From: an uncultured Bacillota bacterium
GTDB lineage: Bacteria > Bacillota > Clostridia > Oscillospirales > Oscillospiraceae
Assembly: GCA_947172355.1 (NCBI GenBank)
Contig: CAMWBA010000009.1
Coordinates: 1 to 38,288 of the forward strand
Length of the DNA stretch: 38,288 nucleotides
Reading direction: 5' to 3'
Shown piece after piece: positions 28,496-36,537 of this stretch. Below the pieces are notes generated by a model. That model worked only from the letters and a program-made list of their open reading frames with translations. It was not told the DNA's origin and did not search any database. Positions within the stretch are counted from its first letter, which is position 1, and each line of letters opens with the position of its first letter. A program made the position numbers and the translations under genes.

Positions 28496-30613
28496 TTATG
28501 GCACACTTGCGGCCGCCGGTTGTTCCTTATTCTCCCGCTTTGCCGGCGGATTCTTCCGCCAGTAAAGGCTGGTCTTGCGGAACACCGGTTCACAGACACA
28601 CAGCACCGCCGGCATAAAGAAGATGCTCACCAAGGCGGAGATCAGCGCGCCCCGGGCCAGCATGGTGCAGATGGCGCCGATCAGGTCAATGGAGGAGACG
28701 AAGGACACGCCCAGCGTGGCGGAGAAGAGCACCAGAGCGCTGGTGATGATGGACGCGTCCGAGGAGTCCGCCGCAATCTGGATGGCCTCAAGCCGGTCCT
28801 TGCCGGCACGCAGTTCGTCCTGGAAGCGGGAGGTCATCAAAATAGCGTAGTCCACCGTAGCCCCCAGCTGGATACAGCTGATAATGCACGGGGCAATGAA
28901 GCACACCTGTGCCCCGGTGAAGTAGCTCATTCCTTGGTTAATCATAATGGCCAGTTCAATGGTGGCCACCAACACAGCCGGAATGGAGATGGATTTGAAG
29001 ACCAGCGCAATAATGACAAAGATGGCGGCAACGGAGATCACATTGGTCACCATGATGTCCACATTCATGGTCTCGATCAGATCCCGGTACATGGCGCCCT
29101 CGCCGGTAATCATGGCGTTGGGGTCATGGTCGTCCAAAATGGCCTGCATCTGTTCCAGCTGCTCCGCCACCGCATCGGTAGCCGGCTCCCGATTGGAATT
29201 GACCATCATCATTTGATAGCCGCCTTGTTTCAGAATATCCCGGACCTCCTCGGGGACAAAGAAGTCCGGTATTCCAGTGCCCAGCATCTTGTGATAGCTC
29301 AATACGCTGGTCACCCCCGGCACCTCCTCCATCCGATTCTCAATGTCGCTCATCTGGGCCGGCGTCAGGTCGTCCCGCAGAAGGATGAAATGGGACACCG
29401 CCATGTCAAAGTCGTTCTTCAACTTCTCGTTGCTGATGATGGAGGGCAGGTCCCGGGGCAGAGATTCGTCCAGCTTATAATACATTTCAGTGTGTTTCTG
29501 GGAGTACCAGGCGGGAGGGACACACAGCAGCATCAGCACCGCAAAAACTCTCCGGTGGCGGATGACAAAGGCGTTAATTTTGTGCATACTGGGCAGATAG
29601 GGCCGGTGGGCAAAGCGGACAATCTGCTTGTCGAACACCAGCACCAGGGCGGGCAGGACAAAGATCACGGTGGCAATACCCAGCACCACCCCTTTGGCCA
29701 TGACCAGCCCGATATTTTTGCCCAGCGTCATCTGCATAAAGCACAGCGCCAAAAACCCCGCGATGGTGGTGGCGCTGGACCCGGACAGCGACCGGAAAGC
29801 CGCCACAATGGCCTGAGCCATGGCGTCCCGTACATCCTCATAGTGTTTGCGCTCCTCCATATAGCGGTGGTAGAGGAAGATGGAGTAGTCCATGGTAACG
29901 CCCAGCTGAAGAACGGCGGCGATGGCTTTGGTGATGTAGGAGATTTCCCCCAGAATGATATTGGTGCCGAAGTTATAGACGATGGCCATGCCGATCCCGG
30001 ACAGAAACACCAGGGGCAAGGCAAAGGACTCCAACGTCAGCAGCATCACCGCCAGGGCCAGAACCACCGCCAGGCTGACAAAGATGGGCAGCTCTTTGTC
30101 CATGATGGCACAGGTATCCCGAACCACCACCGAAAAGCCGGCCAGGAAGCATGTTTCGTTGCACAGGGCCCGAACCTGATCAATCGCGTCCATGGTCTCG
30201 TCCGAAGCGCCGGGATAGTCATACTGGACAATCATCATGGTGGCGCTGCCCGAGAAAAAGATATCTCGAAAGGAGACCGGAATCATCTCGGTGGGAATCT
30301 GGATGCCCACCAGGTTGGACAGCCACAGGGCGTTGGACACCCCAGGTACCTTCTTGATCTCGTTGAGCAGCTGGTTGCTGTAGCCAGCAGGCATACCGTC
30401 CACCACCAGCATACTGGTGGCCGCCATGTGGAAGGGGTCTTCCAGCAGTTTCTCCCCCTGGGAGGAGGGCAGATCCTCCGGAAGATAGGAGAGGATATCA
30501 TAGTTGACGCGGGTCGCGACATAGCCCAGCGCCGAGGGAATCAGCAGCAGCACAGCAACCAGAGCCACCAGTTTTGGCTTTCTGGTCAGCCAATGGGCAA
30601 TCTTTTCCACCAT
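28496..30613 (-). CDS. MMPL/RND-family transporter
   Basis: A 705-residue membrane protein with two repeated halves, each with a helix, a large extracytoplasmic domain and a cluster of five or so helices: the RND/MMPL plan. Half one starts at KPKLVALVAVLLLIPSALGY, with MDYSIFLYHRYMEER in the core, and half two at HRRVFAVLMLLCVPP, with the equivalent VDYAILMTSRFQDE. These paired D-Y-x-I-x-x-x-x-R segments are hallmarks of MMPL proteins and include the proton-relay Asp. The length is typical for the Firmicute YdfJ-like group. Export of lipids or amphipathic compounds is the usual family role. ATG 30613 has AAAGGAGGGG upstream. It is 16 bp after the gene for a large exported coiled-coil protein and is presumably co-transcribed with it. 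Confidence 0.9.
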   Translation of the reverse strand: MVEKIAHWLTRKPKLVALVAVLLLIPSALGYVATRVNYDILSYLPEDLPSSQGEKLLEDPFHMAATSMLVVDGMPAGYSNQLLNEIKKVPGVSNALWLSNLVGIQIPTEMIPVSFRDIFFSGSATMMIVQYDYPGASDETMDAIDQVRALCNETCFLAGFSVVVRDTCAIMDKELPIFVSLAVVLALAVMLLTLESFALPLVFLSGIGMAIVYNFGTNIILGEISYITKAIAAVLQLGVTMDYSIFLYHRYMEERKHYEDVRDAMAQAIVAAFRSLSGSSATTIAGFLALCFMQMTLGKNIGLVMAKGVVLGIATVIFVLPALVLVFDKQIVRFAHRPYLPSMHKINAFVIRHRRVFAVLMLLCVPPAWYSQKHTEMYYKLDESLPRDLPSIISNEKLKNDFDMAVSHFILLRDDLTPAQMSDIENRMEEVPGVTSVLSYHKMLGTGIPDFFVPEEVRDILKQGGYQMMMVNSNREPATDAVAEQLEQMQAILDDHDPNAMITGEGAMYRDLIETMNVDIMVTNVISVAAIFVIIALVFKSISIPAVLVATIELAIMINQGMSYFTGAQVCFIAPCIISCIQLGATVDYAILMTSRFQDELRAGKDRLEAIQIAADSSDASIITSALVLFSATLGVSFVSSIDLIGAICTMLARGALISALVSIFFMPAVLCVCEPVFRKTSLYWRKNPPAKRENKEQPAAASVP

Positions 30614-30629
30614 GGGATATCCCCTCCTT

Positions 30630-33263
30630 TCAATGGAAAATTCCGGTAATCGCGTTCCAGAAATCCCGGAACATCTGGGCTACACGGTCCCAGAAGGTGG
30701 TCTTTTCCTTTGCGGCCATCGTCTCTGCCTCCTGCGCGCCCTCCTCCGCTTTGATCTCCTGGGTGCGGATCAGCACCTGGACGCTGGAGGGGGAGGGATT
30801 GCGGCTGTCGGTGAGGGAGACCGGCTCCGCTCCGGCATCCATCAACAGCAGATTGTTGATATCGCCGGTGTACTCGTTCCAGGTGTCCTCAACGATATCG
30901 GTAATGGTGGCTTTGGCGTCCCGGACGTCGCTGGTGGCAGCCATGGCCTTAGCGGTCTGGCGCAGGGCGTCGGACAGCCCTCGAAGGGTTTGTCTGGTCC
31001 CGGTATCCAGCTGACTGCCGGAGGACTTCATAAGGGTCTCGGTATCGGACAGCAGCCGCTCCAGGTCCCGGATCGCGACCGCCGCCGCGGTACTCATAGC
31101 GCCTACATTGGCCACAGACTCCTGGAGGATGGGCTCGTAGTCGTTGAGCAGCGTCCGCAGTTGGTCGGTACTGCTCAATATGGCCCGGATCTCCTGGGAG
31201 GACCGGCGCAGGGCGGCAGACAGGTCCGCCGCGTCATCCACCAGATCTACCAGATCGTCAATCTGCTGGCACAGACCGGCCAGTTCCCCTACCACTTGGG
31301 CGGTGGGCCGGGTGATATCGTCCAGCGTATCGCTCAGCTCCCGCTGGATTTGGCTGATTTTATCGTTTGCGCTGTCCAAACCGCCGGCGATCAGATCCAC
31401 CGCTGCACCGCCGATGCTGTCATTTTCGCCGTCCGCCTGAGGGGCTCTGAGCTCCGCCCCGGCAGAAGGCGACTCACTTTCCTGGCTCTCCTGGCTTTCT
31501 TGGCTCTCCTGGCTCTCCGGGGGCTGTCCCAGCACCGGAACCTCCTGGTTTGGAACCGGGAGGGCCTCCGCCGCCGCGCCAATCAGCATACTGCCGGCCA
31601 ACGCTCCGGACATAACCCCCGTACCTCCAGCAATCCGGTTTAGGCCATCCTGGGATGGCTCCTCTAAGGAGGCGCCCTCCGCGCCCTGGCCGCTGCTGTA
31701 AATCAGCCACAGGTCGTTCATCTGCTTGGCCTGGGTCTTGGAGATACCGGGCAGCTTTTCACAGAAACTCTGGAAGCTCATGCCCCCTTGGACTCCCGCC
31801 TGGAGCTGCTTCAGCTCTTGGGCGTTTTTCCAGTCCGCCTCGGTGGCGGCACCCACCGCCCCCGCCGCCTGCGCCGCTTTAAAGGTGTCCAGATCCGGGA
31901 TTCCTTGCAGGGCAATCACACCGGGCACACTGGCTGCGGCTTCACTCTGGCTTTTGCCGCTGAGCACCAGCATCCCAGTAAGAAAGACGGCTGTGTCGCC
32001 AGCGCTCTCATAGACGCCATGTACCTTCTTCACCTGATCCACGGTGGCGGTCATGGAGGAGGAGCTGCTGCCCCCTGAAATTCCGGTCCTGTCCAGCGCC
32101 CGCTCCAGCCGCTCTAAGCTGTCCTCCAAATCCGCCGCGCTCTTTAGCAGCCGCTCCACATCGCCGGTGCCGTTTTCCAGCTCTTGAAGGGCGTGTTCCA
32201 GATCGGTCAGCTGGATTTGGAGGGTCAATGTGGTGTCCGCCATTCCATTCAGAATGGTCTTGGAGTCGTTGATGGTCTGGCTCAGCGCCTGAGTCCGCTG
32301 CTCCACCGGCTCCAACAGGCCGGCGATGTTGGACAGGTCGCCCCGCAGCACCCCCGCCTCGTCATAAATCTGGCCCTTACCGCCCGAGATGGTGCTTCGG
32401 GCAATGTCCAGCTGGTCCAATCCGTTGGCGGAGGCGTACAGTCCACTTTGAATGTCGTTCAGCGCGTCCAATAGGGTGTCCAGACTGCCGGACAGGGCCC
32501 GGTAGTCCTCTTCCAAGTCGTCCTTGCGCTGGCTCAGCTTGGCAATCTCCTCCAGCTGTGCCAGGGTGGCAGGCACCATGAGGATGGTCATTCCTCCAAA
32601 GGAGAAGTCGTTGCTGCCCACCCGGATGGTAAAATGCTGTTCCTCCCCTGGCAGGACCATAAACAGCACGGTGCGCAGATTGCCCACCAGCTGCACCTGG
32701 GCTCCAGGGGCCTCCAGTGAGAGGATGTCATCTTGGTTGAACAGGGCCATTGCCTCCAAGGTATAGTTATAGCGGGCATAGGCGCTGGCCTTTTTGTTGG
32801 GTACAATATCCAGCTGAATCTCCACTACGCCCTGTTCCCCCGCCAAATCCTCCGCTTTCACGGGCACACCATTGAGGGTATACCGCAGAGCAACGGTCCA
32901 AGGAAGGTCCTGGAAGGGCTGTGCCGTCTTGCCCTCAAAGTAGAAGTGCTCTGGTGCCTGATCAAACTGAAAGGCGGTAGTCCCTCCGCTGGTAACTGCC
33001 GGAGTGCTGTCGGTCAGATTGATTACCTGGTCATAGACGCCGTAGTCCGAAAAGGAGGAGGCGCCGTTCAAGGTATAGCTCTTTACCACGCTGCCCTCCA
33101 TCAGATTTCCATAGTAATCCAGCGTAGCGTAGTACGCCTCATCGCAGCTGGGGGTAACGCCGCTGTCGATGGGAGCGGCACAGACGGGCACCACGGCCCC
33201 CGCCGTCATCAGAGCGGCCAGAGCAAGCGCTGTCAGGCGCATGGATTTGCTGTGTTGGGTCAT
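30630..33263 (-). CDS. Large exported coiled-coil protein, partner of MMPL transporter
   Basis: An 877-residue secreted protein. It has a signal peptide (MTQHSKSMRLTALALAALMT then AGAVVPVCAA, cleavage near residue 30), then a beta-rich domain to about residue 250, followed by long helical heptad-like stretches rich in Leu, Asp, Glu and Gln (about 250-420 and 640-820), and a central Ser/Gln/Glu-Pro linker with four tandem QES units. The C-terminus is an amphipathic, aromatic-rich helix (FWDRVAQMFRDFWNAITGIF) that may lie on the membrane. ATG 33263 with GGGAGG 8 bp upstream is chosen over a start 11 codons earlier. The general layout (membrane-proximal helical rods with an MMPL transporter) resembles YhgE/Pip-like and MMPL-accessory proteins, but I do not recognise a defined family. 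It is first in a two-gene operon and divergent from a TetR gene. Confidence 0.72.
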   Translation of the reverse strand: MTQHSKSMRLTALALAALMTAGAVVPVCAAPIDSGVTPSCDEAYYATLDYYGNLMEGSVVKSYTLNGASSFSDYGVYDQVINLTDSTPAVTSGGTTAFQFDQAPEHFYFEGKTAQPFQDLPWTVALRYTLNGVPVKAEDLAGEQGVVEIQLDIVPNKKASAYARYNYTLEAMALFNQDDILSLEAPGAQVQLVGNLRTVLFMVLPGEEQHFTIRVGSNDFSFGGMTILMVPATLAQLEEIAKLSQRKDDLEEDYRALSGSLDTLLDALNDIQSGLYASANGLDQLDIARSTISGGKGQIYDEAGVLRGDLSNIAGLLEPVEQRTQALSQTINDSKTILNGMADTTLTLQIQLTDLEHALQELENGTGDVERLLKSAADLEDSLERLERALDRTGISGGSSSSSMTATVDQVKKVHGVYESAGDTAVFLTGMLVLSGKSQSEAAASVPGVIALQGIPDLDTFKAAQAAGAVGAATEADWKNAQELKQLQAGVQGGMSFQSFCEKLPGISKTQAKQMNDLWLIYSSGQGAEGASLEEPSQDGLNRIAGGTGVMSGALAGSMLIGAAAEALPVPNQEVPVLGQPPESQESQESQESQESESPSAGAELRAPQADGENDSIGGAAVDLIAGGLDSANDKISQIQRELSDTLDDITRPTAQVVGELAGLCQQIDDLVDLVDDAADLSAALRRSSQEIRAILSSTDQLRTLLNDYEPILQESVANVGAMSTAAAVAIRDLERLLSDTETLMKSSGSQLDTGTRQTLRGLSDALRQTAKAMAATSDVRDAKATITDIVEDTWNEYTGDINNLLLMDAGAEPVSLTDSRNPSPSSVQVLIRTQEIKAEEGAQEAETMAAKEKTTFWDRVAQMFRDFWNAITGIFH
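31480..31515. repeat. Four tandem 9-bp repeats encoding QES units
   Basis: TCCTGGCTC-type 9-mers repeat four times at 31480-31515, encoding QES repeats in the linker of the exported protein. Copies two and three differ by one base each. The length could vary by slippage between strains. Confidence 0.8.
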
Positions 33264-33313
33264 AGCTGATTCCTCCCAAAAATAATCAACATGCAATCTT
33301 TAAAATAAACGTG

Positions 33314-33411: not shown

Positions 33412-33999
33412 ATGTTAAAAAACCCGGAGGACCGGCGCGCCCGCCGGTCACGCAAGCTGCTCAAGCAAAGCCTGCTGGAGCTGATGAAGGAGAAATCCTT
33501 TTCCGAGATCTCCGTCCGCGACATCGCCGAGGGGGCCGATATGAACCGGGGAACCTTCTACCTCCACTACTCCGGCACCGTTGAGCTGCTCCAAAGCGTA
33601 GAAGCGGAGCTGTTGGAGGAACTGGAATCCCTCATCGGCGCCCACATCCAGGAGACGGTGGCTGACGGCACGGTACGTCCGGTACTGGAGCCCCTGCTGG
33701 ACTTTGCCGTGGCCCACAGGGACACCTGCGCCATCCTCTTTGCCAGCAGCGAGGCCAGCGGTTTTATTCAAGCCCTTCAACAGCTTATCAGCCGCTGCGG
33801 CGCCGCCTTGGTGGAGGACTGGTTTCACCCCCAGGACCGGCGGCAGACCGACTATTACCTCAGCTTTCTCACCTGGGGGGCCATCGGACTTTTAAAGGAG
33901 TGGTTCGCCCAGGATATGGCTCTGCCCCGGGAGGAACTGCTGGCCGCCGCCCAGCGCATGGCTGATGGTTCAGCCAGCCGGCTGTTCTCGAAGGGTTGA
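33412..33999 (+). CDS. TetR-family regulator controlling the exported-protein/MMPL operon
   Basis: A 195-residue TetR protein. The helix-turn-helix is ISVRDIAEGADMNRGTFYLHY (in part: VRDIAEGADMNRGTFYLHY, residues 33-51). The C-domain has short helices rich in Leu and ends FSKG. ATG 33412 has AAGGAGGGG upstream. It is divergent from the 877-residue protein and MMPL genes and shares overlapping promoters with them, the classical layout for a TetR repressor controlling a transporter and itself. It is similar in size and style to the TetR at the other end of the cluster (DhaS-like group). The inducer is unknown. A hairpin follows at 34022-34051. Confidence 0.9.
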   Translation: MLKNPEDRRARRSRKLLKQSLLELMKEKSFSEISVRDIAEGADMNRGTFYLHYSGTVELLQSVEAELLEELESLIGAHIQETVADGTVRPVLEPLLDFAVAHRDTCAILFASSEASGFIQALQQLISRCGAALVEDWFHPQDRRQTDYYLSFLTWGAIGLLKEWFAQDMALPREELLAAAQRMADGSASRLFSKG

Positions 34000-34059: not shown

Positions 34060-35433
34060 TCATTTTCCCACACAGAATTTGGAAAAGATCCGGTCGGTAA
34101 CATCCTCCCGAACCGTCCGTCCGGTGAGTTCCCCTAGGGCGGACAGGGCCTCCTCCACATCGGTAAGGAGGGCGTCGGGGGTGACACCGGCCCGCAGGGC
34201 CTCGCGGGCCCGGCGGACCGCCTCTCTGGCCCGGGAGGCGGCCTCCTCCTGGCGGGCGTTGGTGAGAATCTGTCCATAATCCCAGTACAGGTCCTGGGGG
34301 AAGGCGCAGGATATTTCATTGCACAGCTCATCCAGGTATTTGGTCCTGGCGCTCACCGTCACACAGGGGGGCAGCTCCATATAGACAGCAGGGATGGGGG
34401 CAGTGGGCAGGTCCCCCTTGGTCCACACCCGGATGGTGGGGGCCAGCTTCTTCGCCTCTTGCAGTAGGGCGAAATCGGCCTCCTCCGCAGGCCGGGAGGA
34501 GTCGATGAGCACCAGAATCAGTCCCGCCTCCTCCATCGCCTTCCGGGATCGCTCCACGCCCAGCTTCTCCACCGGGTCCGCCGTGTCCCGCAGGCCGGCG
34601 GTGTCGATGAGCCGCAGAGGGACGCCGCCCAGCTCACACCGCTCCTCCACCGTATCCCGGGTGGTGCCGGGGATGTCGGTGACAATGGCCCGTTCCCAGC
34701 CCACCATGGCGTTGAGCAAGGAGGACTTGCCCGCGTTGGGCCGGCCTACAATGGCGCAGGCCACCCCCTCCCGCAGCAGCTTGGCCCGCCCGCAGGAGGC
34801 CAGCAGGACATTCAGTTCTCCCTCCTGGTCGGACAGCTCCTCGTCCAGCTGTTCCAGGCGGAAGGGGTCAACGTCCTCGTCCGGGTAGTCCAGCACGGCA
34901 TGAAAATGAGCCATCACGTCCACCAGAGCGGAGTAAATATCCTCAATCCGTTTGGACAGCGCCCCGGCCAGCTGACCTGCCGCGTGCCGGGCCCCCTCCC
35001 GGCTCTGCGCGCCGAGGAGGTCCCCCACCGCCTCCGCCTGGGCCAAGTCCAGACGGCCGTTGAGAAACGCCCGCCGGGTAAAGTCCCCGGCCATGGCCTG
35101 ACGGGCCCCCTGAGCAAACAGCGCTTCCAGCCCCAAGGTAAGCACCATAGGAGAACCGTGGCATTGAAACTCCGCCGTATCCTCCCCGGTATAGCTGGAG
35201 GGGCCAAGACTGTAGGTACACAGCACCCGGTCGATGGCCTGCCCGCCGCTGTCCAGCAGGTCGCCATAGACCAGCGTCCGGGGCGGATGCTCCCGCAATC
35301 CCTTGCCGCCCAGTGGTTTAAAGCATGTTTCCGCAATGGATGCCGCCTCCGGTCCGGACAGACGGAGAATCCCGATGGCTCCCGGTCCCGGAGGGGTGGA
35401 GAGGGCTGCGATAGTGTCGGTTTGAATGGCCAT
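34060..35433 (-). CDS. mnmE: tRNA uridine-5-carboxymethylaminomethyl(34) synthesis GTPase MnmE
   Basis: A 457-residue tRNA-modification GTPase that works with MnmG to install the (carboxymethyl)aminomethyl group at wobble uridine 34. The N-terminal tetrahydrofolate-binding domain starts MAIQTDTIAALSTPPGPGAI and has DFTRRAFLNGRLDLAQAEAV. The G domain carries G1 GRPNAGKSS (about residue 224), G2 IPGTTRDTVEE, G3 DTAGLRDT and G4 as TKGD (usual NKxD). The C-terminus FCVGK provides the invariant cysteine motif (C-[IVL]-G-K). ATG 35433 follows AAAGGAG; the frame is open 43 codons further but those residues are not family-like. mnmG, usually adjacent, is not in this window. The upstream region holds a DnaA-box-like cluster. 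Confidence 0.97.
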   Translation of the reverse strand: MAIQTDTIAALSTPPGPGAIGILRLSGPEAASIAETCFKPLGGKGLREHPPRTLVYGDLLDSGGQAIDRVLCTYSLGPSSYTGEDTAEFQCHGSPMVLTLGLEALFAQGARQAMAGDFTRRAFLNGRLDLAQAEAVGDLLGAQSREGARHAAGQLAGALSKRIEDIYSALVDVMAHFHAVLDYPDEDVDPFRLEQLDEELSDQEGELNVLLASCGRAKLLREGVACAIVGRPNAGKSSLLNAMVGWERAIVTDIPGTTRDTVEERCELGGVPLRLIDTAGLRDTADPVEKLGVERSRKAMEEAGLILVLIDSSRPAEEADFALLQEAKKLAPTIRVWTKGDLPTAPIPAVYMELPPCVTVSARTKYLDELCNEISCAFPQDLYWDYGQILTNARQEEAASRAREAVRRAREALRAGVTPDALLTDVEEALSALGELTGRTVREDVTDRIFSKFCVGK

Positions 35434-35554
35434 AAAGGGACTCCTTTCCTGTTTCGGCGGGAGGCACATATTTACTTGCAAAAATACCAATCCATAAAAG
35501 TTTGTGAATATTTCTGCCTTGACAAATGTTATGGAAACCAAAGGATGCATATTT

Positions 35555-35664
35555 GCTTCCACACAACGTCCACAAGCGATGTGGAAAACTCGGTGGAAAA
35601 TGTGGAAAACCCTTTGGGCACAGGGAACTTTCCCTGTGGAAAACTCAGTGGAAAAAGTGGATAA
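35555..35664. other. DnaA-box-like cluster: 30-bp repeat with three boxes, twice
   Basis: Six boxes read TGTGGAAAA or close variants on the plus strand (reverse of the consensus TTWTNCACA) at 35580, 35592, 35601, 35635, 35647 and 35656. Three fit perfectly and three have one mismatch. They form two copies of a 30-bp unit (35580-35609 and 35635-35664, 27 of 30 identical), each with boxes 12 and 9 bp apart, and copies 55 bp apart. CACAGGGAA-CT-TTCCCTGTG (35620-35639) is an inverted repeat between them. Weaker, opposite boxes (GCTTCCACA 35555; ACGTCCACA 35566) lie to the left. To the right, 35661-35701 is strongly AT-rich. The 322-bp gap 35434-35755 holds no gene. Confidence 0.6.
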
Positions 35665-35755
35665 AAAATTGCATAGAGGATGTCAAAATAATTTTTAATT
35701 GGATCGGAGGACGAACCGGTGTGGACGGCTCACTCTTTATTTTGCAGGAAAACCG

Positions 35756-36517
35756 TTACAGCCAGATGCCCCAGCCGTCATATTGGAACACTCCTGCGCC
35801 GTGGTGCAGCTTTCCCTCCCGCTTCAGCTGGCGGAGAGCGTCCCGCATCCGGGCCGGGAGTTCCGGCGGGACTTCCAGGGAATGATGGGCTGGGAAAACC
35901 CGCCGGGCGGGCAGGGCCGCCACCCGCTCCAGGGAGGCCAGATAGGCCTCCGGGTCGGTGGAGGGGTAGTAGGCAAAGAGAGTGTCCAGATAGATCAGGT
36001 CACCGGTATACAGCTCCCCCCGGTCCGCCTCCCAGAAGCACAGATGCCCCGGGGAGTGGCCCGGCGTGTGGAGGGCTTCCACCCTCCGCCCGCCCAGGTC
36101 CAGCACCTCGCCGCCGCGGAGGACCCGGGTGGGCACTCCCTGGAACATTTTGTATTGGCTCACATCAAAGCCCTCCGGCGGATCGCACCGGTCCAGCACC
36201 ATCTCCCGCACCGTCTCTATGGACAGGGGAAACCTGCCCTGGAGCCAGGGCAGCTCCGCCTCATGGGCGTAGAAGTCCGGAAAGTACTTGTGCCCGCCGA
36301 TGTGGTCCCAGTGGATGTGGGTGGCGATGGCGGTGACCGGCTTGTCCGTCAGCCGGCGGACCTCCTCGTAAATATTGCAGATACCCAGCCCGGTGTCGAT
36401 GAGCAGAGCGCGGTCTTCGCCGGCGAGGAGGTAACAATGGGTCTCCTCCCAGTGGCGGTATTCGCTGATGACCCAGGTGTCAGGGGCCAGCGATTCGTTG
36501 GTAAACCAGGGGCGCAT
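35756..36517 (-). CDS. MBL-fold metallo-hydrolase
   Basis: A 253-residue metallo-beta-lactamase-fold enzyme. Ligands are visible: THIHWDHIGGH (HxHxDH, residues about 67-77), TPGHSPGH (His), YTGDLIY (bridging Asp) and FPAHHS (last His). Arrangement and length are like glyoxalase II-like/quorum-lactonase-like hydrolases; no specific substrate can be named. ATG 36517 is chosen because AAAGGAG lies 5 bp upstream; a start five codons earlier overlaps that site. It lies between the DnaA-box cluster and a palindromic repeat, with the membrane-protein gene upstream on the same strand separated by 89 bp. Confidence 0.87.
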   Translation of the reverse strand: MRPWFTNESLAPDTWVISEYRHWEETHCYLLAGEDRALLIDTGLGICNIYEEVRRLTDKPVTAIATHIHWDHIGGHKYFPDFYAHEAELPWLQGRFPLSIETVREMVLDRCDPPEGFDVSQYKMFQGVPTRVLRGGEVLDLGGRRVEALHTPGHSPGHLCFWEADRGELYTGDLIYLDTLFAYYPSTDPEAYLASLERVAALPARRVFPAHHSLEVPPELPARMRDALRQLKREGKLHHGAGVFQYDGWGIWL

Positions 36518-36537
36518 AAAAACTCCTTTCATGGGCA

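Follow-up and report, generated by a model that had tools for sequence, protein, structure and literature searches.

The closest described systems come from Bacillus subtilis and Escherichia coli; we take the B. subtilis gene names gcp and trmE to denote tsaD and mnmE, respectively. Excerpts of an earlier study describe binding of DnaA in B. subtilis downstream of gcp and upstream of trmE, and DnaA appears to repress trmE-noc (PMC4447404). Removal of six clusters of DnaA boxes outside oriC leads to early initiation in this species, and the six may or may not include those at gcp and trmE, as far as the excerpted sources go (PMC5295017, PMC13220808). For E. coli, the excerpts describe datA as acting together with IHF (PMC5295017) and DARS2 as acting with IHF and Fis (PMC13036160). 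The sections available of a 2026 review describe B. subtilis as having no datA, DARS1, DARS2 or IHF, and treat as open whether it regulates the balance of DnaA-ADP and DnaA-ATP (PMC13220808).

The window analysed here, 38,288 nucleotides of Oscillospiraceae DNA, is the complete contig C9 of an assembly of 3.13 Mb in 275 contigs that is 77% complete. Clusters of DnaA-box-like sites occupy a 322-bp gap 5' of mnmE, before a gene for an MBL-fold hydrolase (Table 1). Records from Lawsonibacter, Pseudoflavonifractor, Flintibacter and Flavonifractor were among the relatives of this MnmE in a protein search. On its far side, mnmE faces a convergent gene for a TetR-type regulator, so that mnmG does not follow and the window holds no trmE-noc operon. 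The regulator gene (33412-33999) stands beside genes for a large protein with weak coiled-coil-type matches (30630-33296) and an MMPL-type transporter (28496-30613); the matches of all three are below curated cut-offs. A distant inverted repeat, TCCTGCAAAA / TTTTGCAGGA at 35740-35749 and 35475-35484, brackets the whole intergenic region and is found in many relatives, with one side degenerate in the window.

Table 1. Positions of the module and of neighbouring features in the window.
Feature	Position	Strand	Basis or remark
mnmE (trmE/thdF)	34060..35433	-	NCBIfam TIGR00450 above cut-off; next to the module across the window's clade
Whole module, about 100 bp (inner triplet and partner motif at a fixed distance)	35514..35613	-	Alignment of 45 copies
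M-box (partner motif) GTTTCCATAACATTTGTCAAG	35518..35538	-	Alignments; starts 72 bp after the triplet start
Spacer	35540..35579	-	ATATGCA element present (alignments)
Two weak opposite DnaA-box-like sites	35555-35563, 35566-35574	+	Sequence-only reading; sequence
Inner triplet TTTTCCACA-TTTTCCACC-GAG-TTTTCCACA, spacing 9/12	35580..35609	-	Sequence and comparison of regions 5' of mnmE
Perfect 9-bp inverted repeat with 2-bp loop, CACAGGGAA/TTCCCTGTG	35619-35627 and 35630-35638		Sequence
Outer triplet (second copy; differs from the triplet pattern at 3 positions)	35635..35664	-	Kept in near relatives only
AT-rich block ATTATTTTGACATCCTCTATGCA	about 35665..35700	-	Kept in near relatives (alignment)
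MBL-fold hydrolase gene (upstream gene)	35756..36532	-	Upstream neighbour differs among relatives

As a sequence-only reading of this DNA had described, six boxes lie here in two 30-bp copies. Each copy holds three TGTGGAAAA-type sites with start spacings of 12 and 9 bp, and the inner and outer copies are 90% identical and 55 bp apart from start to start, an arrangement far beyond chance. The window contains four strict matches to TTWTNCACA against 0.99 expected, a number reached in 2 of 100 shuffles, and three of the four fall inside the cluster. With up to eight mismatches allowed, the triplet pattern matched twice in the window and not once in 15 Markov-1 simulations. The assembly has 93 TTTTCCACA sites; three within 100 bp were found at only two places, namely this cluster and the gap between dnaA and dnaN on contig C14. 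The inverted repeat between the copies that the sequence-only reading had pointed out is real, with a perfect 9-bp match, but showed no conservation in the alignment of near relatives. Its two opposite boxes on the left exist as weak sites (7/9 and 6/9 consensus positions matched, by eye) but were likewise not conserved in that alignment. The AT-rich segment on the right is present and kept in near relatives; conservation of this block and of the outer triplet stops there and does not extend to the wider set.

We compared the regions 5' of mnmE from 80 relatives and the window. The arrangement of three boxes was found in 47 sequences, with the exact 9/12 spacing as the best arrangement in 43 of these, and three of the other four also hold a 9/12 triplet. 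Within the clade, 9/12 triplets begin 138-280 bp ahead of the mnmE match. Conservation of the 30-bp repeat upstream of mnmE, which the sequence-only reading had proposed to look for, is strong within the clade. None of the 33 more distant loci (L059-L091, MnmE identity of 57% or less) had a triplet 5' of mnmE, and neither did any of 30 phylum-level loci at mnmE. Wider samples of the family gave 1 of 20 and 3 of 10 at the mnmE site (4/30 together), the three being L125, L126 and L129, the last with a weak middle box; the 20-locus sample comprised 19 listed rows and G071, which replaced the already examined G158. The mnmE site of the module is clade-specific. L037, with only 173 bp upstream of mnmE before the contig end, was dropped, and 15 sequences with deviant spacing, without a regex match or nearly duplicating another were left out of alignment A1 (L024, L027, L033, L034, L038, L043, L047, L050, L053, L277, L282, L283, L284, L287 and L294).

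The most conserved neighbour of the triplets, which the sequence-only reading had missed, is the M-box. Alignments place this strongly conserved motif, with the consensus GTTNNCATAAnnnnTGTCAAG, between the triplet and mnmE. A regex for the M-box matched 50 of 60 copies and left 10 unmatched. Its start lies 72-73 bp from the triplet start in 45 of the 60 copies, 71 or 74 bp in three, and 62-63 bp in two (L050 and L277), the last being shorter by 10 bp, or one helical turn. The sequence between triplet and M-box is variable; in many relatives the spacer holds TTATGTNAAC, an inverted M-box that is degenerate in the window. This phasing suggests that two proteins may meet on one face of the DNA.

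The association of the two motifs extends to loci away from mnmE. Among 49 loci picked by their triplets (including L237-L255, hand-picked triplet matches away from mnmE), 42 were not beside mnmE. In these 42, exact GTTNACATAA on either strand occurred 17 times in 5,874 bp near the triplet, counted as a window of 170 bp around it, versus 8 times in 115,937 bp elsewhere. This is a 39-fold enrichment with a Fisher p of 3e-17, which is optimistic because loci of the same genus are not independent. The occurrences near the triplet fall only at -38/-39, at +33/+34 (inverted) and at +69 to +72; they were present in 15 of the 42 loci and absent from 27. A longer M-box pattern matched 19 of 200 family genomes versus 12 for the reversed control, which makes it weak as a regulon motif search on its own; in 5 of the 19 (G000, G039, G087, G158 and G116) the match lies at a triplet, by eye.

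The module is not always adjacent to mnmE. In the closed genome G160, a complete module lies 3.3 kb upstream of mnmE. In G158, a triplet and M-box without TTATGTNAAC stand beside spoIID (Pfam); the contig that carries mnmE is a different one and lacks both. In G032, a triplet with TTATGTAAAC and GTTGACATAA lies 9.5 kb from mnmE and the TGTCAAG half is missing. Allowing up to three mismatches, a search with the triplet pattern alone hit 115 of the 200 family genomes; the reversed pattern, used as a control, hit none. At E 0.01, R1, a profile of the nucleotide sequence that was built on mnmE-type copies, matched 187 of the 200 genomes, and 101 of the 106 genera were represented, an upper limit that overstates full modules because many R1 matches cover the triplet only. 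Several copies of the module or triplet per genome were seen as R1 matches. The match in the window itself, which is among the sequences R1 was built from, spans 35516-35612 and scores 76.3 bits (E 3.8e-21). At class level, 112 of 246 genomes matched R1 at E 0.001, two of them being family members; the best score outside the family was 34.7 bits versus 76.3 for the window, and many class matches are confined to the triplet. The full module therefore seems to belong to the family, and the 9/12 triplet to reach further. A strict M-box was nearby in 3 of 20 class loci inspected.

A second recurrent position lies just 3' of tsaD, where R1 matched in all seven closed or near-closed genomes. In six of these (G128, G078, G098, G125, G160 and G074) the match is on the opposite strand, 111 to 270 bp past the 3' edge of the match to the TsaD profile, and scores 17.1 to 35.4 bits, with G128 at 17.1 bits. 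In AP018533.1, Pfam identifies the gene next to the R1 match at 2872.9 kb as TsaD. For a broader sample we took the first 40 rows minus G167, G142 and G103, which have little 3' flank. In the resulting 37 loci, R1 at E 0.01 matched on the 3' side of tsaD in 18 and not in 19. Of three added tsaD loci of the window's own genus, two had a match and the third, from the window's assembly, has a flank of 287 bp. This gives 20 of 40 on the 3' side versus 0 of 40 on the 5' side (Fisher p 8e-8). A plain count of boxes agrees, with at least two in 21 of 40 3' flanks and in 1 of 40 5' flanks. In G128, AP018533.1, G125 and G160, 10 of 15 R1 places are no further from dnaA than 12% of a replichore (binomial p 1e-6), or 8 of 13 if the two places at oriC are set aside, at a cut that was picked after looking, with some R1 places weak or inside genes and with G078, G098 and G074 outside the count. 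Copies at tsaD lie much further out, at distances from dnaA that reach about 1 Mb, so closeness to the origin is no general trait.

Other places recur as well. The triplet or module is found between genes for an IstB/DnaI-like ATPase and a polysaccharide flippase in several genera; Pfam identified both genes at L177, L254 and L329, whereas at L252 and L190 one gene each was scanned, the flippase and the ATPase respectively. Triplets lie 5' of a gene for an EF-G-like GTPase at L238 (G189) and L333 (AP018533.1), 11-15 kb from dnaA. In two genomes, the mutL coding sequence holds DnaA-box-like arrays between its conserved domains (L340:1497-1580 in G128, 45 kb from dnaA, and L339:1480-1563 in AP018533.1, 64 kb from dnaA). 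The boxes of these arrays are mostly 9, 12 or 21 bp apart and encode repeats of the V-D/E-N type.

Given the boxes in their fixed geometry, the phased partner motif, the repeated occurrence in relatives and an oriC elsewhere, we favour the reading that this is a DnaA-binding module outside oriC that restrains initiation together with a putative partner protein, and we give it a probability of about 0.6. The triplet would be bound cooperatively by DnaA, with boxes 1 and 3, 21 bp or two helical turns apart, presented on one face. A putative second protein would occupy the M-box, about seven turns from the triplet, and together with DnaA would form a defined nucleoprotein complex. Because it would bind DnaA away from oriC and would be copied with its region of the chromosome, the module would most likely leave less DnaA free to initiate another round, as is thought for the B. 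subtilis clusters. Near mnmE it may also modulate transcription of that gene. Of the three options that the sequence-only reading had offered for the locus, namely an origin, a DnaA titration site or a DnaA-controlled mnmE promoter, titration by predicted binding of DnaA fits best.

The promoter option holds that bound DnaA represses or activates mnmE and thereby ties tRNA modification to the state of replication. Its appeal lies in the position of the clade triplet before mnmE while the upstream gene changes, and in the apparent repression of trmE-noc by DnaA described above for B. subtilis. A promoter scan gave one match versus 0.4 expected from shuffles. The displacement of the module by 3.3 kb in G160, by 9.5 kb in G032 and to another contig in G158 weakens promoter control as the sole role; many family copies lie at other genes, several of them just past the 3' end of tsaD, and G160 and G087 have, by eye, a promoter-like TACAAT near the mnmE start, apart from the module. 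Control of mnmE is a possible side function, for which B. subtilis offers a precedent, but it cannot account for everything, because the module is off mnmE in these three relatives and the mnmE site is occupied in 4 of 30 family loci versus R1 matches in 187 of 200 genomes. As the primary explanation we consider it unlikely.

A further alternative is that the triplet and its partner alter the nucleotide state of DnaA, as a DARS- or datA-like element would, instead of merely holding the protein. Such an element would call for several boxes in a fixed geometry and for a second motif in phase with them, and the partnerships of datA with IHF and of DARS2 with IHF and Fis offer a parallel. The reported lack of datA, DARS1, DARS2 and IHF in B. 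subtilis argues the other way, and we judge such an activity quite improbable.

The high conservation of the 5' intergenic region could also suit a riboswitch or another structured RNA in the leader of mnmE. This reading is highly improbable: the window had no Rfam match at the gathering score, RNAalifold found zero pairs in 45 aligned copies, and copies of the module lie at unrelated genes.

That the site is the chromosome origin itself, or a second one, was suggested by DnaA boxes next to an AT-rich stretch and by the closeness of mnmE to oriC in many Firmicutes. Contig C14 carries dnaA and dnaN, both identified by Pfam, with three TTTTCCACA sites between them in the standard order; an rpmH-like start follows past dnaA, by eye, as a 51-aa open reading frame without a Pfam match. 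The window's own assembly is fragmented, and GC skew was examined in two closed relatives, G128 and AP018533.1. In the congener G128 (2917.8 kb), dnaA sits at position 7, and mnmE, at 2744.7 kb, is 173 kb away from it. The skew is negative throughout the nine 20-kb windows that span 2740 to 2918 kb, is -0.015 in the first window after dnaA and positive in the next, and stays positive in most sampled windows to 1.48 Mb. Left of mnmE, from 2680 to 2740 kb, it is weakly positive, so that the step at mnmE runs opposite to that of an origin. AP018533.1 (strain CCNA10) has dnaA at 122 bp and mnmE at about 117 kb. Sampled windows left of its dnaA are negative except for one at 3450 kb, and those that cover 0 to 100 kb all have positive skew, one of them just +0.002. 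At mnmE the skew shifts locally, being -0.004 over the 17 kb on the left of the gene and +0.057 over the 20 kb on the right. This step speaks for an origin there, but the main change is at dnaA: four of the five windows between dnaA and the mnmE-side window are clearly positive, and skew turns negative between 138 and 220 kb before it returns to positive values in the three windows beyond. In both genomes the mnmE site thus lies inside one replichore and the sign changes near dnaA, contrary to the skew minimum at mnmE that the sequence-only reading had proposed as a check. The intact dnaA-dnaN locus and the skew of the two relatives rule out an origin at mnmE, the module also occurs in several copies per genome, and this is the least probable of the explanations considered.

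To our knowledge, little is known about the timing of replication in Firmicutes outside Bacillus, and in the open-licence PMC literature we recognised no report of such a module in Oscillospiraceae. The DnaA-binding module that we favour recurs at set places in many related genomes and is likely to be part of this timing. As a conserved, countable element with a phased partner motif, it would offer a direct handle on when initiation occurs: the M-box could serve as bait for the putative partner, and the module could be deleted at one or more sites. The overlap with the gcp and trmE regions of B. subtilis makes an ancient, shared layer of initiation control testable. A bolder proposal, which we hold only tentatively and think rather unlikely, is a family-wide DARS/datA-like class in Clostridia, built from a rigid platform of three boxes and a phased site for a putative protein, at tsaD and mnmE positions shared with B. 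subtilis; if true, it would represent an ancient set of initiation-control sites outside the origin in Firmicutes.

Several known systems share parts of this design. The bipartite oriC of Clostridia and Bacillus (rpmH-dnaA-dnaN) uses the same kind of DnaA box, but the module is not at dnaA, the skew changes elsewhere and there are several copies per genome. The E. coli elements datA, DARS1 and DARS2, likened here by description, are also DnaA elements of several boxes outside oriC, and datA and DARS2 work with partner DNA-binding proteins; in the module, the M-box at its fixed distance would be the candidate site for such a partner. The DnaA-repressed trmE-noc promoter of B. subtilis has its DnaA sites 5' of the same gene, whereas the window has no such operon and the module is separable from mnmE. 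Closest are the DnaA-box clusters of B. subtilis (Okumura et al. 2012), which, in the excerpts available, are likewise clusters of consensus boxes outside oriC with several per genome. Two of their traits were found in the module, a box cluster outside oriC and recurrence at the 3' end of tsaD or the 5' end of mnmE. By comparison with those clusters, the module has a rigid 9/12 triplet and a phased M-box, a contrast in which B. subtilis is represented by its neighbouring genes alone, and in two closed relatives a distance of 117-173 kb separates mnmE from dnaA. The neighbours common to the module and the DnaA-binding regions of B. subtilis, as far as the excerpts describe them, are the 3' side of gcp (tsaD) and the 5' side of trmE (mnmE), and by analogy this shared pair suggests either common ancestry or repeated recruitment of the same positions.
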